Made by a program: the position numbers and the translations under genes
In this document: piece after piece, positions 4,633 through 12,924 of the stretch
Numbering within the stretch: position 1 is the first letter of the stretch
Layout of the letters: each line of letters opens with the position of its first letter
The notes under the pieces: model-generated
What the model was told of the DNA's origin: nothing
Databases searched by the model: none
The model's input: the letters and a program-made list of their open reading frames with translations, nothing else
NCBI GenBank assembly: GCA_003577005.1
Contig: QEUW01000238.1
Coordinates: 1-12,924, forward strand
Reading direction: 5' to 3'
From: Chloroflexota bacterium
GTDB lineage: Bacteria; Chloroflexota; Anaerolineae; Caldilineales; Caldilineaceae
Length of the DNA stretch: 12,924 nucleotides

Positions 4633-4986
4633 ATGATGAACACAGCAAATGTACCCATGGATTTCACCGTCTACCAGCGCGAATCGCGCAAAACCTGGAG
4701 CCTGATCCACACCGATCATCCCATCGTCTATCCCACGTTGGGTCTGGTCAACGAGGCCGGCGAACTGGCCGGCAAGGTCAAAAAGATCTTCCGCGACAAG
4801 CAGGGGCAGATCAGCGCCGAGGACCGGGATGCGCTCAAACACGAACTGGGCGATGTGCTCTGGTATCTGGCGCAAATCTGCACCGAACTCGACCTGACGC
4901 TGGAGGAAGTCGCCACCGCAAACCTGACCAAGTTATTCTCCCGCCTCGAACGTGGTACAATTGGCGGCGAAGGGGATGAAAGATAA
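4633..4986 (+). CDS. MazG-like nucleotide pyrophosphohydrolase
   Basis: All-alpha NTP pyrophosphohydrolase of the MazG-like superfamily, 117 residues, expected to hydrolyse (d)NTPs or modified nucleotides to the monophosphate and pyrophosphate with Mg2+. The metal-binding pattern is present: GLVNEAGELAGKVKK (E41, E44) and HELGDVLWYLA (E71, D74). The C-terminus (LERGTIGGEGDER) resembles the RGxxxGxGDxR ending common in this subfamily, so the gene looks complete. The first of two tandem ATGs (4633, 4636) is used; the Shine-Dalgarno signal is weak, and ATG 4657 (MDFTVYQ) is an alternative closer to the conserved start. It lies 42 nt after the acetyltransferase and 20 nt before the GH4 gene, so probably in the same transcript. 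A second, clearly different MazG-like gene lies at 6819. Role probably housekeeping, but this is uncertain. Confidence 0.88.
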   Translation: MMNTANVPMDFTVYQRESRKTWSLIHTDHPIVYPTLGLVNEAGELAGKVKKIFRDKQGQISAEDRDALKHELGDVLWYLAQICTELDLTLEEVATANLTKLFSRLERGTIGGEGDER

Positions 4987-6758: not shown

Positions 6759-6818
6759 GTTTGCTGCTTGAGAAACAATACACAAACGGACCGCTCTAAA
6801 GCCAAGCTAAGCTTACCT

Positions 6819-7127
6819 ATGACGATCAAAGAGCTACAAGAACAGGCCAGGGAACTCCGAGCGGCACAAGGTTGGCTCGACACTTCTCTTGAGCATCGGA
6901 TCATGTTTCTTGTCACCGAGGTTGGCGAAGTCGTCAACGAGACCCTGAAACTGGTCGGAGCAACCAAACAGTACAGCGATAGCGAGGTGGAGCAGATTAA
7001 AGCGAACCTCGGTCTGGAATTGTATGACGTTTTGTGGAATCTGTGCGATCTCGCCAACCTCGCCGGCATCGACCTAGAGGCAGCTTTTGCCAAGAAGGTT
7101 GCAATCAACCGCACCAGGAAATGGTAG
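6819..7127 (+). CDS. MazG-like nucleotide pyrophosphohydrolase (second, divergent copy)
   Basis: Protein of 102 residues with the MazG/NTP-PPase helix bundle: MFLVTEVGEVVNETLKL (E34, E37) and LGLELYDVLWNLCDLANLAGIDLEAAF (E67, D70) supply the ExxE and ExxD metal sites, followed by KKVAINRTRKW. It is only distantly like the MazG-like protein at 4633, so it is not a recent duplicate. ATG 6819 is chosen because similarity starts at TIKELQEQARELRAAQGW; an in-frame TTG 17 codons upstream (6768) would add a low-complexity polar tail and has no ribosome-binding site. Together with DUF2442 it forms a less GC-rich segment between the GH4 and HAD genes. Its substrate cannot be inferred. Confidence 0.85.
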   Translation: MTIKELQEQARELRAAQGWLDTSLEHRIMFLVTEVGEVVNETLKLVGATKQYSDSEVEQIKANLGLELYDVLWNLCDLANLAGIDLEAAFAKKVAINRTRKW

Positions 7128-7930: not shown

Positions 7931-8881
7931 GTGACGACCCTGGCTGATTCAACCACCCCCACCCCCCAATCGCAAACCCGCCCTCGTGTCAGCCGCACCG
8001 CCTGGCGGCGTAACCTAGAGGGCTGGCTCTTTGCCTCGCCGTGGATCATCGGTTTTGTACTCTGGACGCTGGGGCCGATGGTCGCCTCCCTCTTTATCGC
8101 CTTTACCGAATGGGACTTGATTACCTCCCCCCGCTGGGCAGGTCTGGCCAATATCCAGGCTATGTGGCAGGATCGGCTGGTGGCGCAGGCGCTCAAAGTA
8201 ACCACCTTTTACGCCCTGGCCAGTGTGCCGCTGCACCTGATCTTCGGGCTGGGGCTGGCGCTGCTGCTCAACAACAAGATTGGCGGGCTGCGCCTCTACC
8301 GCACGGCGTTTTATCTGCCGTCGGTGTTGTCGGGGGTGGCGGTGGCGCTGCTCTGGCGCTGGCTCTTTTCCAAAGAGTTTGGGCTGATCAACGCCCTGCT
8401 CTATCGCATCGGCATCGAAGGGCCAAGCTGGCTGGGGGATGAACGCTGGGCCTTGCCGTCGCTGGTCGCCATGAGCCTGTGGGGCGTCGGCGCAGGGGCG
8501 ATCATCTATCTGGCCGGTCTGCAGGGCATCCCCACCGACCTCTACGAGGCAGCCGAGGTAGATGGCGCGCGCGGCTGGAGCCGTTTCTGGAGCATCACGC
8601 TGCCCATGATGACACCAGTGCTCTTCTTCCAACTGGTGACCGGTTTTATCGGGGCGTTACAGGTCTTTACCGAAGCCTTTATCATGACGCGCGGCGGGCC
8701 CAACAACGCCACGCTCTTCTATCTGCTCTATCTCTATCAAAACGCCTTTGAGTATTTCCGCATGGGATATGGCAGCGCGCTGGCCTGGGTGCTCTTTTTG
8801 TACATTCTTGTGTTGACGCTTCTTACCTTTCGCTCGTCGCAATTTTGGGTCTTTTACGAAGGCGAAGAGAGAAACCGGTGA
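7931..8881 (+). CDS. Carbohydrate ABC transporter permease, MalF/UgpA type (CUT1)
   Basis: Inner-membrane permease of a binding-protein-dependent sugar importer, 316 residues. After a polar N-terminus (1-30) the first membrane helix runs roughly 32-58 (WLFASPWIIGFVLWTLGP), with further hydrophobic spans near 90-113, 126-146, 175-197, 228-248 and 280-300. The ATPase-docking EAA loop is clear: LYEAAEVDGARGWSRFW followed by SITLPMM (about 204-227). MTRGGPNNAT (252-261) is typical of the MalF/UgpA branch. GTG 7931 is chosen, with AGGA at 7919-7922. It opens the importer cluster after a repeat-filled gap. No cognate ATPase gene is visible, so an ATPase encoded elsewhere (MsmK/UgpC type) is likely. 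The substrate is presumably an oligosaccharide. Confidence 0.94.
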   Translation: MTTLADSTTPTPQSQTRPRVSRTAWRRNLEGWLFASPWIIGFVLWTLGPMVASLFIAFTEWDLITSPRWAGLANIQAMWQDRLVAQALKVTTFYALASVPLHLIFGLGLALLLNNKIGGLRLYRTAFYLPSVLSGVAVALLWRWLFSKEFGLINALLYRIGIEGPSWLGDERWALPSLVAMSLWGVGAGAIIYLAGLQGIPTDLYEAAEVDGARGWSRFWSITLPMMTPVLFFQLVTGFIGALQVFTEAFIMTRGGPNNATLFYLLYLYQNAFEYFRMGYGSALAWVLFLYILVLTLLTFRSSQFWVFYEGEERNR

Positions 8882-9163
8882 GGAAACGGGGAACTGGAAA
8901 CGAAGTCTTCCGGCACTCTCTATCGGCAACTGTAGGTCATCGCTTCCGGCATGACATCACTGGCTTGGGGGAGCTTGTCACGCGGGAGGCTACGCAATAC
9001 CGGGAAATTTTGTTGCCAGCGTAATTGGTTGGTTTTCACTTTCAGCCTCGACTTATGAAGATTAAGAGATTGTTTCGGCAACGGTAGGGATTACCGAGCT
9101 AAATTGTGAAGCTTCATTAGTCGAAGGTTGGATGTTACGACCGTAGAGAGGGATTGCGAAGCG
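8882..9163. other. 282-nt non-coding spacer between the two permease genes
   Basis: Paired CUT1 permease genes usually abut or overlap, so this gap is unusual. I see no ORF with family resemblance. It contains an imperfect direct repeat, TCGGCAACTGTAGG (8923-8936) and TCGGCAACGGTAGG (9075-9088; 13 of 14 identical), two copies of CTTCCGGCA (near 8907 and 8950), and a short 5-bp stem CGGTA/TACCG at 9082-9096. Base composition looks less GC-rich than the flanking genes. No convincing promoter or terminator was recognised. Confidence 0.6.
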
Positions 9164-10048
9164 ATGGCTGCAATTGACACCACCCGGCCAGTAGCTGATC
9201 CACCGGCGGGGCTGACTATGCGCCAGCGCCGGTGGATCAGCAAGGGGCTTGTGCATCTGGCGCTCTTGGCCGGGGTGACGCTCATGTTCATCCCCCTGGC
9301 GTGGACGCTCTCCACCTCGCTCAAGAAGCCAGGCGAGGTCTTTCTCTTCCCACCCACCTTTATCCCCAGCGAAATCGTCTGGCGCAACTATGCCGATGCG
9401 GTGACCGCCATTCCGTTCTTCAAGTATCTCTGGAACACCGCCACCATCACCGGCTTGACCATCGTGGGCAAGGTGATGTCGGTGACGCTGGTCGCCTTCG
9501 CCTTTGCCCGTCTGCGCTGGTGGGGGCGCGACACGCTCTTTTTGATTATGCTGGCGACGCTCATGTTGCCGACCCATGTGACGCTCATCCCGCAGTTTAT
9601 TCTGTTCAAAAACCTGGGCTGGATCAACACCTTTCTGCCGTTGATCGTGCCTCATTTCTTTGGCGGCCCGTGGCTGACCTTTCTCGTGCGCCAGTTCTTG
9701 CTCACGCTGCCTCGTGAACTCGATGACGCTGCCCGCATCGACGGCTGTTCCAGCTTTGGCGTCTTTGCCCGCATCATCCTGCCGCTGGCTATGCCGGCGG
9801 TGTTGATCGTGGTGATCTTTGTCTTCAACAACACCTGGAATGACTTTCTGGGGCCGCTGATCTATCTGCACAGCCAGGACAAGTTTACGCTGGCGTTGGG
9901 CCTGCGCATGTTCCAGGGTGAGGCCAGCACCAGTTGGAATTTGCTCATGGCGGCCTCGTTGCTCACGATGCTCCCCGTGCTGATCCTCTTCTTTGCCGCC
10001 CAAAAGTACTTTATGCAGGGGATTGTCTTTACGGGAGTGAAAGGATAA
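9164..10048 (+). CDS. Carbohydrate ABC transporter permease, MalG/UgpE type (CUT1)
   Basis: Second membrane permease of the sugar importer, 294 residues. A first helix spans about 28-50 (LVHLALLAGVTLMFIPLAWTLS), followed by the conserved TSLKKPGEVF and PSEIVWRNYADAV periplasmic segment of the MalG family. Further helices lie near 90-115, 123-148, 155-180, 206-225 and 258-280. The EAA ATPase-docking loop is ELDDAARIDGCSSFGVFARIILP (about 185-207). FNNTWNDFLGPLIYL and the C-terminal MQGIVFTGVKG are family hallmarks, so the 3' end is intact. ATG 9164 is used; TTG 9128 in frame would add 12 non-conserved residues. GAGAGGGA at 9146-9153 is a usable though distant ribosome-binding site. It pairs with the MalF-type permease at 7931 despite the 282-nt gap. 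Confidence 0.94.
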   Translation: MAAIDTTRPVADPPAGLTMRQRRWISKGLVHLALLAGVTLMFIPLAWTLSTSLKKPGEVFLFPPTFIPSEIVWRNYADAVTAIPFFKYLWNTATITGLTIVGKVMSVTLVAFAFARLRWWGRDTLFLIMLATLMLPTHVTLIPQFILFKNLGWINTFLPLIVPHFFGGPWLTFLVRQFLLTLPRELDDAARIDGCSSFGVFARIILPLAMPAVLIVVIFVFNNTWNDFLGPLIYLHSQDKFTLALGLRMFQGEASTSWNLLMAASLLTMLPVLILFFAAQKYFMQGIVFTGVKG

Positions 10049-10049
10049 A

Positions 10050-10147
10050 GGGGGATTGGAGAGATTTGAAGAGATTTGAGGGGATTACGGGGGTTCAAGC
10101 CGATTGGCGGCAATCTCCCCAATCTCCTCAAATCTCCCCAATCCCCC
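10050..10147. repeat. Long imperfect inverted repeat (about 36-bp arms) before the binding-protein gene
   Basis: The left arm 10050-10086 (beginning GGGGGATTGGAGAGATTTGA) and right arm 10112-10147 (ending CAAATCTCCCCAATCCCCC) are complementary over about 36 bp, with four substitutions and one unpaired base, around a 25-nt loop. Three of the four mismatches would be G-U pairs in a minus-strand RNA but A-C mismatches in plus-strand RNA. Within each arm the GAGATT/AATCTC motif is itself repeated. It occupies nearly all of the spacer between the permease stop and the binding-protein ribosome-binding site. It could attenuate or stabilise the transcript, or be a dispersed repeat element; related short copies occur near 446-470 and 11697-11718. 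Confidence 0.75.
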
Positions 10148-10173
10148 AATACCGTCCTGTTCAAAAGAGTTAC

Positions 10174-10180
10174 AAAGGAG
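10174..10180 (+). promoter_or_regulatory. Strong ribosome binding site of the binding-protein gene
   Basis: AAAGGAG ends six nt before ATG 10187 and decides this start over a longer in-frame extension that would run back through the inverted repeat. It is the best Shine-Dalgarno in the window and fits the high expression needed for a binding protein. Confidence 0.8.
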
Positions 10181-10186
10181 AACCAC

Positions 10187-11548
10187 ATGCACAATTATTC
10201 TCTCACTCGCCGCACCTTTTTGCGTGGCGCTGCCTCCGTGGCCGGGTTGGCTGCGCTGGCCGCCTGTGCGCCGGCCGCTCCCGGTGCACAACCCGCCGGT
10301 GAAGATGCTGCGCCCGCCGCCGAGCAGGTGACGCTCACCTTTATCGTGGACACCATCAACGAGGGCCACATCCAGATGCGGGATAAGTGGGCGCAAGAAT
10401 TTATGGACGCCAACCCCGAAGTCCGCATCGATCACCAGACCGTGCCGCAAGAATATGTCACCAAGATCCAGACGCTCTATGCCGCCGGCACGCCCGCCGA
10501 CATCTACCGCTATCTGCAAGAGGTGACGCCCATCATCACGGTGGCGGAAAAGAATATGCACCTGCAACTGGACGATTTTGTCGCCGCCGACAGCTACGAC
10601 ATCGACGATTTCCGCCCCGACGCCATTACGCTCTACACCTGGGAAGACAAGCTCTACGCCCTGCCGCGCGACTACGGCAATCAGAACATCTATTACAATA
10701 TCGACCTTTTTGAAGAGGCCGGCGTCCCTGTCCCCACAGCCAATTGGGAAGACCGAGATTGGAACTTCGAGACCTTCCTTGACGCGGCCATGAAGCTGAC
10801 CAAACGCGAGGGTGACCGCACCACCCAGTGGGGCTTCCTCGTCAACCGGGCGCAGCGGCCCTGGGCCTCGTGGCTCTACTCCAACGGCGGCGGTCTAGTT
10901 CATAAAGATGACCGGGGTGTGGCCACCGAATCAGCCATGACCGATGAAGCATCAGTCGAGGCGTTGCAATTTGTCCAGGACCTGATGCACGTCCACAAGG
11001 TAGCGCCCACCCCAGACCTGGAGTCGGAAATGGGCGGCTTTGAGCTTTTCGCCAGCGGCCGCGTAGCAATGATGGTCAATAATCCCTCAGCCGTCAACCG
11101 CTACCGCACCATCGAAGCTTTCCGCTGGGATGTGGCGACGCTGCCCATCGGCAAGGCCGAGCGCCGCGGCACGGGCGGCGGTGGCACCGGCTGGGCCGCG
11201 GCGGCAGCCACCAGCGCACCGGAATGGGCGTGGAAGTTCATTGCCCATATCTCTAGCGCCCAGGCCGAGCTCGATGAGGTCAGCGTGGGCGCAACCACGC
11301 CGTCGCGCGTCTCGGTGGTGCTCTCCGACGCCTTCCTCAGCCCCGATTTGCCGCCCGCCAACTCGCGCGGTTTCGCCGACGCCCAGGAATATGTGGTGCG
11401 TGACCCGGTGCATGTGCTCTGGCCGGAGATCACCCAGCGCATCTACAACCCCAAGATGGACCAGCTCTGGAGCGGTACGCTCGACGCAGCCGCCGTCGCC
11501 CAAGAGATCGCCGACGAAGCCAATCCGCTGTTTGCCCGGACGGAGTAG
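10187..11548 (+). CDS. Extracellular sugar-binding lipoprotein of the CUT1 ABC transporter
   Basis: Solute-binding protein (SBP_bac_1 family) of 453 residues that captures a sugar outside the membrane and delivers it to the permeases at 7931 and 9164. The N-terminus is a twin-arginine lipoprotein signal: TRRTFLRG (residues 7-14), a hydrophobic stretch, and lipobox LAAC with acylated C27, then an Ala/Pro/Gly-rich linker to about residue 45. The mature part has typical family features: VTLTFIVDTINEGH as first strand, QEYVTKIQTLYAAGTPADIYRYLQEV (the hinge-proximal helix), LYALPRDYGNQNIYYNIDLFEEAGV, and GRVAMMVNNPSAVNRYR. Length is normal and no internal stop is seen. The gene comes last in the importer cluster; binding-protein genes more often come first. 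The preceding inverted repeat and strong ribosome-binding site suggest it is expressed differently from the permeases. Ligand unknown. Confidence 0.94.
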   Translation: MHNYSLTRRTFLRGAASVAGLAALAACAPAAPGAQPAGEDAAPAAEQVTLTFIVDTINEGHIQMRDKWAQEFMDANPEVRIDHQTVPQEYVTKIQTLYAAGTPADIYRYLQEVTPIITVAEKNMHLQLDDFVAADSYDIDDFRPDAITLYTWEDKLYALPRDYGNQNIYYNIDLFEEAGVPVPTANWEDRDWNFETFLDAAMKLTKREGDRTTQWGFLVNRAQRPWASWLYSNGGGLVHKDDRGVATESAMTDEASVEALQFVQDLMHVHKVAPTPDLESEMGGFELFASGRVAMMVNNPSAVNRYRTIEAFRWDVATLPIGKAERRGTGGGGTGWAAAAATSAPEWAWKFIAHISSAQAELDEVSVGATTPSRVSVVLSDAFLSPDLPPANSRGFADAQEYVVRDPVHVLWPEITQRIYNPKMDQLWSGTLDAAAVAQEIADEANPLFARTE

Positions 11549-11582
11549 CGCGGGGTCGGGTGAGATTCACATTCTCGCCTCC

Positions 11583-11649
11583 GGCATTCCGGGAAAGGGC
11601 CTTATGCAGCTGGTCAAATAGGGCATCTACCGCCCTTTCCCGGAATGCC
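11583..11649. other. 18-bp perfect inverted repeat (terminator-like stem) after the binding-protein gene
   Basis: GGCATTCCGGGAAAGGGC (11583-11600) and GCCCTTTCCCGGAATGCC (11632-11649) are exact reverse complements, separated by a 31-nt loop that contains CAGCTG. The stem begins 34 nt after the binding-protein stop. No U-tract follows the right arm, so it is not a canonical intrinsic terminator; it may still stop or stabilise the transporter mRNA, or be a mobile or dispersed palindromic repeat. Confidence 0.75.
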
Positions 11650-11696
11650 TGGCAGGGTTGGCGCAAAATGTTGAAACGCACCCAGCGAGATCAGTA

Positions 11697-11718
11697 CCAA
11701 GTCTCCAAAAATCTCCAG
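11697..11718. repeat. AATCTCC-type spacer repeat, copy 3
   Basis: A short stretch with GTCTCC and AATCTCC just upstream of the sulfatase start resembles the pyrimidine repeats at 446-470 and 10112-10147. It is short, so chance is possible, but it is the third spacer with the motif on the same strand. Confidence 0.3.
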
Positions 11719-11733
11719 TCACCTTAACCCACC

Positions 11734-12924
11734 ATGACCAACTCACGACCCAATGTCATCGTCTTTTTCACTGACCAACAGCGCTGGGACACCACCGGCG
11801 TGCATGGCAACCCGCTGGGGCTGACACCCAATTTTGACCGTATGGCGCAGCGGGGGACGGATGCCGGACAGTATGCCACCCAGACCGGTGTCTGGCGCAA
11901 TGGCCGTACGCTGGCGGAAGATGCAGTCACACTGGCAAAGTGTTTTCGTCAGGGGGGATACACCACCGGCTATATTGGCAAGTGGCACCTGGCTGCCAAT
12001 GACCCCGTGCCCGAAGCCGAGCGCGGCGGCTACGAATACTGGCTGGCATCGAACGTGCTCGAATTTACCTCCGACGCCTACGATCTGGTCATGTACGACA
12101 ACGACAACCAGCCGGTCAAGCTACCGGGCTACCGAGTCGATGGGCAGACCGACGCCGCCATCCGCTATATCGACGCCCACCAGCATGATCCCTTCTTTCT
12201 CTTTTTGTCGTATATCGAGCCACACCACCAGAACCACCTCGATGATTACCCGCCGCCCGACGGCTATCGCGAGCAGTATACAGGTCGTCACATCCCGCCC
12301 GACCTGGCGGCGCTGGGCGGCTCGACGCACCAGCACCTGGGCGGATACTATGGCATGGTCAAACGGCTGGACGAGGCGCTGGGACGGCTCTTCGACGCGC
12401 TCAAGAGCCTGGACCTGCTCGACAACACCATCGTGCTCTTTACCTCCGACCACGGCTGCCACTTCAAGACGCGCAACGCCGAGTACAAACGCTCATGCCA
12501 CGAGAGTTCGATCCGCGTGCCCACAGCCATCTGCGGGCCCGGTTTCGACGGTGGGGGGCGGATTTCGCAACTGGTAAGCCTGGTCGACCTGCCGCCCACG
12601 CTGCTCGATGCCGCCGGCCTGCCCGTTCCGGAGCAGATGCAGGGGCACTCGATCTTGCCGCTGTTGCACGGGCCAAAAGGGGATTGGCCAGAGGAGGTCT
12701 TTATCCAGATCAGCGAGTCGCAGATCGGCCGCGCCCTGCGGACCCACCGCTGGAAGTACAGCGTCACCGCGCCGGGACAGGGCGGCAACAGCGCCCCGGC
12801 CAGCGACCACTATGTGGAGGAGTACCTCTACGACCTCCACGCCGACCCGCACGAGCTGCAAAATCTGGTCAACGTGGAGAACTATGGCGAGGTGAAGGCG
12901 ATGTTGCGCGCCCGGCTCATCGAG
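11734..12924 (+). CDS. Sulfatase family protein lacking the CxPxR formylglycine segment (3' truncated by window)
   Basis: Alkaline-phosphatase-fold sulfatase (type I family), 397 codons open to the window end. The start is ATG 11734; the frame has a stop at 11725, and no ribosome-binding site is evident. Motifs seen: RPNVIVFFTDQQRWD (residues 5-19; metal ligands D14, Q15), YIGKWHLA (K83, H85), FLSYIEPHHQNH (about 157-168), FTSDHG (metal D/H about 239-240), YKRSCHESSIRVP with the sulfate-binding lysine, and the C-terminal YLYDLHADPHELQNL, so little is missing at the 3' end. Residues 41-47 run directly from PNFDRMAQRGT into AGQYATQTGVWRNG. In relatives about 20 residues holding the C-x-P/A-x-R maturation signature lie exactly between these segments. 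Without the modified Cys/Ser and adjacent Arg, sulfatase activity is not expected. The frame is otherwise intact, so this is a recent deletion, an assembly artefact, or a non-catalytic homologue. Confidence 0.88.
   Translation, partial: MTNSRPNVIVFFTDQQRWDTTGVHGNPLGLTPNFDRMAQRGTDAGQYATQTGVWRNGRTLAEDAVTLAKCFRQGGYTTGYIGKWHLAANDPVPEAERGGYEYWLASNVLEFTSDAYDLVMYDNDNQPVKLPGYRVDGQTDAAIRYIDAHQHDPFFLFLSYIEPHHQNHLDDYPPPDGYREQYTGRHIPPDLAALGGSTHQHLGGYYGMVKRLDEALGRLFDALKSLDLLDNTIVLFTSDHGCHFKTRNAEYKRSCHESSIRVPTAICGPGFDGGGRISQLVSLVDLPPTLLDAAGLPVPEQMQGHSILPLLHGPKGDWPEEVFIQISESQIGRALRTHRWKYSVTAPGQGGNSAPASDHYVEEYLYDLHADPHELQNLVNVENYGEVKAMLRARLIE

Follow-up and report, generated by a model that had tools for sequence, protein, structure and literature searches.

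The window, the whole stretch of 12,924 nucleotides that was analysed, ends in a sulfatase gene that lies behind the genes of an ABC transporter. The features on which the analysis turns are as follows.

7931..8881, + strand: ABC transporter permease 1 (BPD_transp_1, E=3.3e-14; 73% identical in L022)
9128..10048, + strand: ABC transporter permease 2 (best NCBIfam match UgpE, 132.8 bits where the cut-off is 297; 65% identical in L022)
10076..11548, + strand: ABC transporter solute-binding protein, carbohydrate type, immediately preceding the sulfatase (SBP_bac_8, E=5.6e-25; start codon uncertain)
11734..12924, + strand: S1-type (formylglycine-dependent family) sulfatase gene (Pfam; 86-89% identity to P0001-P0004)
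11773..11778, + strand: D14-Q15, kept (invariant in 120/120 relatives)
11860..11868, + strand: deletion junction D43-A44-G45 (from alignments with relatives)
11977..11988, + strand: GKWH motif, kept (K83 and H85 invariant in 120/120 relatives)
12445..12456, + strand: SDHG motif, kept (D239 and H240 invariant in 120/120 relatives)

The sulfatase ORF is the last gene of the window, with 397 codons open up to the window end; its 3' end lies outside, and comparison with P0001 indicated that about 40 more codons are to be expected past that point. Pfam Sulfatase (PF00884) matched the protein (E=1.3e-42; 146.6 bits, cut-off 25), indicating that the sulfatase domain is present, and SGSH_C (PF16347) matched its C-terminus with E=2.4e-19. 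A protein search in which 8000 candidates were scored returned at least 7946 relatives at E<=0.001, and the best 120 of these were used. Four of them, P0001-P0004 (456-462 aa), were 86-89% identical to the window protein over aligned columns, and P0001 (457 residues) was the closest among the relatives listed, at 89%. In overall sequence, Pfam domains and the other conserved active-site residues, the window protein thus resembles S1 sulfatases of the SGSH_C type.

The gene order is kept in L022, an Anaerolineae MAG, where two permease genes, a binding-protein gene and a sulfatase gene with an intact CAPAR motif follow one another. The permeases of L022 and the window aligned with 0 and 2 gap positions, and the binding proteins (56% identity) with 17 gap positions in 2 openings, which we take as ordinary divergence between the two sequences. 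When the binding protein was searched by tblastn (E<=1e-10) in 80 loci, matches were found only in L022 and in L039 (25%). The permease-binding protein-sulfatase arrangement therefore seems uncommon in this set, in which many loci end early at contig ends. Most likely, an intact sulfatase at this position would act on a sulfated sugar handled by the adjoining uptake system.

The spacer between the binding-protein and sulfatase genes carries a perfect 18-bp inverted repeat (11583-11600 / 11632-11649, with a 31-bp spacer of its own). Its left arm had no exact match in the 116 related loci that were fetched, and no T-run follows its right arm. RNA of the intergenic region (11549-11733) was predicted to fold more stably than 200/200 shuffled sequences (z -4.1). 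Further upstream, two genes for MazG-type nucleotide pyrophosphohydrolases (4633-4986 and 6768-7127) flank a GH4 (alpha-galactosidase-like) gene and a DUF2442 gene.

The missing block and the residues that remain

A MAFFT alignment of the window protein with the 20 closest of the relatives listed contained a single internal gap of 19 columns, at Asp43/Ala44, and the identical gap was recovered with 120 and with 223 relatives, none of which (0/223) was gapped there. Around the junction the ORF reads ...MAQRGT-D43-A44-G45-QYATQTGVWRNG..., and 19 codons (57 bp), the whole C-[G/A]-P-A-R motif included, are absent between Asp43 (11860-11862) and Ala44 (11863-11865). In the nearest relatives the block reads V-H-x-S-F-T-C-Q-P-V-C-[G/A]-P-A-R-S-x-L-Q, and that of P0001 aligned on the S/C-x-P/A-S-R motifs in three solved-structure alignments. 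The residues just past the junction are unusual as well: Ala44 of the window protein is Thr in 120/120 aligned relatives, and Gln46 is matched by the same residue in 4/120. The excerpts available from two papers give C/S-x-P/A-x-R as the consensus maturation motif of S1 sulfatases (PMC10154612) and describe its converted residue, formylglycine, as their nucleophile (PMC10154612; PMC5066984). Whereas S1 sulfatases carry this motif with its flanks, the window protein has the 19-codon gap in its place. The missing block was not found elsewhere in the window by six-frame translation, motif search or tblastn with the P0001 segment, and the C-x-P/A-x-R matches that do occur there were by chance only, none lying in a sulfatase context.

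These results bear out most of an earlier note on this DNA, which had proposed an in-frame loss of the formylglycine block with about 20 codons missing near 11857..11874. The exact loss is 19 codons, and codons 43-45 fall inside that interval. The frame, said to go on for about 350 codons, continues for 352 after G45 to the window end. The note had allowed that the motif might lie elsewhere in the protein; the block turned up nowhere else in the window. It had also held that the other catalytic motifs remain, and indeed D14, Q15, K83, H85, H164, D239, H240 and K252 are all present in the window protein and invariant in 120/120 relatives. D14-Q15 is what we take to be the metal-site position of S1 sulfatases.

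AlphaFold models of the deleted protein and of the intact P0001, built from matched alignments of 21/20 rows, were both of low confidence, too low for the effects of the deletion to be placed in the structure. The deleted protein scored lower (mean pLDDT 51.0 and pTM 0.58, against 61.8 and 0.68), which is a hint that its fold may be damaged, a comparison of little weight given that the window protein was also modelled without its C-terminal ~40 residues.

Occurrence of the motif in relatives

The possibility that relatives also lack the motif, raised earlier, did not hold. Of the 223 relatives listed, 120 are the best of the search with the whole protein and the remaining 103 were added by a search with residues 24-67; C-x-P-x-R stands in the gap columns of 222 of the 223 (162 CGPAR, 56 CAPAR, 3 CGPSR and 1 CTPAR). 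The search with residues 24-67, which span the junction, returned no relative sharing the deletion among the best 120 of 121 proteins. The sole other departure from the motif among the 223 is P0103, which has CGPAC rather than CGPAR; either an error in sequencing or a further inactive form could account for this.

The same picture was obtained at the level of genomes, where none of the related loci covering the site shares the deletion and the motif is present in 115/115. These belong to a set of 116 loci, 80 from a scan of species genomes (at least 593 stretches from at least 586 relatives) and 36 from whole-genome searches, some of the 116 being one genome reached twice. The 116th, L093, ends at a contig end inside the gene, after the motif, and was left out of the count. 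In one locus, L115, CGPAR is accompanied by QSG in place of QTG, and the other 114 carry the motif by pattern; CGPAR was read directly in L021 and L052. The whole-genome searches drew on three sets. In the family of one relative, 27 of 46 genomes gave a match at E<=1e-100; the order of another relative, by identifier the 46 genomes already named, gave 27 matches at E<=1e-150; and a sample of 400 genomes from the phylum of that second relative gave 7, again at E<=1e-150. The best match across the 46 family and order genomes and the 400 phylum genomes was 77% identical. A search of viral contigs gave no match, and plasmids gave no megablast match to 10000-12924. Among the 223 relatives listed and the 115 loci covering the site, the deletion is, as far as these sequences go, private to the window.

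Selection on the remaining codons

Apart from the junction, the gene looks like that of a working enzyme. At the 149 positions conserved in at least 98% of the 120 relatives, the window protein departs once, at the junction residue, and at 0/148 of the others; each relative departs 0.83 times on average, with a median of 1. Neither stop codons nor frameshifts were found in the rest of the gene up to the window end. Twenty relative-rate comparisons, in which the window was set against P0001-P0004 under five outgroups, gave no consistent excess on the window side; in the two with the largest chi-square values (3.9 and 5.8, P0012 being the outgroup in each) the window was the slower sequence. In a 31-row tree in which the place of the window was weakly supported, its end branch was 0.10, against 0.12 for P0001. 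Of the 120 relatives, P0080 departed most often at conserved positions (7/151); it yet has the motif and is possibly a decaying copy.

Median dN/dS was 0.152 in 20 pairs with the window and 0.153 in 468 pairs without it, all at 72-80% identity, values that are coarse since synonymous sites are far diverged. Of the 115 sequences in the set, which took in the window and one wrong-frame sequence (L052) but not L021 and L093, 95 gave distinct proteins. In 436 closer, non-independent pairs the median was 0.09. Because dN/dS lies near 0.09 in these close pairs, neutral change would run, as a rough estimate, some ten times faster than the constrained rate of the family. On the same rough footing, more than about 2% of the window branch spent without selection would, with a probability of ~95%, have hit one or more of the 148 conserved columns. 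The absence of any such hit therefore means that the loss is very recent, that it is absent from the organism, or that selection has been undiminished since.

With no acceleration, no change at those columns and a dN/dS equal to that of intact pairs, no period of relaxed selection is visible, although dN/dS at the family level is also what one would expect if the loss were recent or artefactual. The marks of a decayed pseudogene (changes at conserved positions, a stop before the window end, a consistent acceleration) were thus not found in the gene. Like pseudogenes and recently inactivated enzyme alleles, it shows a single-lineage loss of an essential catalytic residue; unlike them, it shows no second lesion and no relaxed selection. 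If it is dead, it died very recently. In short, the block is absent from this sequence, it is present in every assessable relative listed, and there is no visible relaxation elsewhere in the gene.

Origin of the deletion

The reading we prefer, at about even chances, is that a formylglycine sulfatase, otherwise ordinary, was inactivated by a very recent deletion; we infer that the organism itself carries the deletion and that the product is inactive. An ordinary sulfatase downstream of a sugar-type ABC transporter would have lost 57 bp in frame, very recently, and with them the cysteine bound for formylglycine, its recognition motif and the surrounding residues (19 in all). Lacking its nucleophile, the protein would have no route to the sulfo-enzyme intermediate, and its folding is probably poor. 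The gene would then be an allele only just inactivated, in whose remaining codons the imprint of selection for activity persists.

The deletion is known from one sequence, and a gene free of decay is what one would expect either from a real but very recent deletion or from an assembly error. It is quite conceivable, if short of probable, that an assembly, amplification-chimera or scaffolding error hides a true gene encoding an intact sulfatase. Outside the gap the gene seems to be functional and under unrelaxed selection, and the deletion recurs in 0/223 relatives listed and 0/115 assessable loci, just as such an error would have it; moreover, the junction lies ~1 kb from the end of the window, which may be a metagenome contig, and a chimeric read or a scaffolding slip is possible. 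Set against this, the 57 missing bases make a whole number of codons and are the only indel relative to the nearest relatives, and the upstream genes, compared with L022 as described above, show few gaps in the permeases and two openings in the binding protein. The in-frame length itself weighs little, having a one-in-three chance for a random loss.

Judged on intact relatives, the breakpoints also offer little for an assembler to confuse. These were used because a repeat collapse would leave a single copy. In 114 intact loci, identical runs spaced 57 bp apart at the breakpoints had a longest length of 3 bases and a median of 2, and the same spacing at control positions gave a median of 1 and a maximum of 7 bases. 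Assemblers require overlaps far above 3 bases. With a longest run of 3 bases, a collapse would have no visible substrate, and no slippage-type repeat that could explain the deletion was found in the 114 loci. The longer repeat list of the window contains none at the junction. An imperfect 10-base direct repeat (9/10) does flank the junction, and the window still has its two copies, one at 11840 and the other at 11890. A collapse over a repeat is accordingly not favoured as the cause of the gap, a judgement drawn from these loci.

The earlier note had set a fresh inactivation and an assembly problem beside a third explanation, a pseudosulfatase kept for binding or as a scaffold. The first two fit the data, and the third found no positive support. 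That catalysis was lost and the protein maintained in a binding, sensing or scaffold role is quite unlikely in our view, even though no stop interrupts the frame before the window end, the remaining active-site residues are intact and dN/dS does not depart from the family level. Repurposing would be expected to change some of the residues needed for catalysis only, but no conserved column outside the junction has changed. A catalytic loss shared across a lineage, which would characterise a maintained pseudoenzyme, was seen neither in the relatives listed, those from the junction-aimed search included, nor in the assessable loci, and the poorer predicted model than that of the intact sister weighs little further against it. 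It would be a long shot that the sulfatase shed its whole formylglycine segment in one step, held on to the rest of its metal-site and pocket residues, and was retained as a sulfated-glycan-binding companion of the adjoining ABC transporter. Barely credible is a still active hydrolase with another nucleophile. Other enzymes of the alkaline phosphatase superfamily use Ser or Thr as nucleophile and provide a precedent, but here the whole nucleophile-bearing segment is gone rather than merely substituted, and the junction residues are D-A-G.

Should the recent deletion be true, the locus would be a clean case of an enzyme losing its activity by one in-frame deletion while the rest of the gene has not yet decayed; should the sequence be an assembly error, the deletion would have no biological meaning. 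Because the protein passes the Pfam cut-off, automatic annotation would still name the gene a sulfatase, a caution against counting functional sulfatases from the profile alone. Among the titles and abstract beginnings of the open-licence literature, nothing matching pseudosulfatases or formylglycine-less sulfatases was found. The nearest likeness is to PF00884 proteins with a changed catalytic position, of which an available excerpt describes 30 with Thr in the Pfam seed, of the TXNXE type (PMC5066984). As far as that excerpt goes, these too are proteins matching the sulfatase profile without the Cys or Ser needed for formylglycine, their activity unproven; they carry the substituted residue in place, whereas the window protein has lost the whole block.
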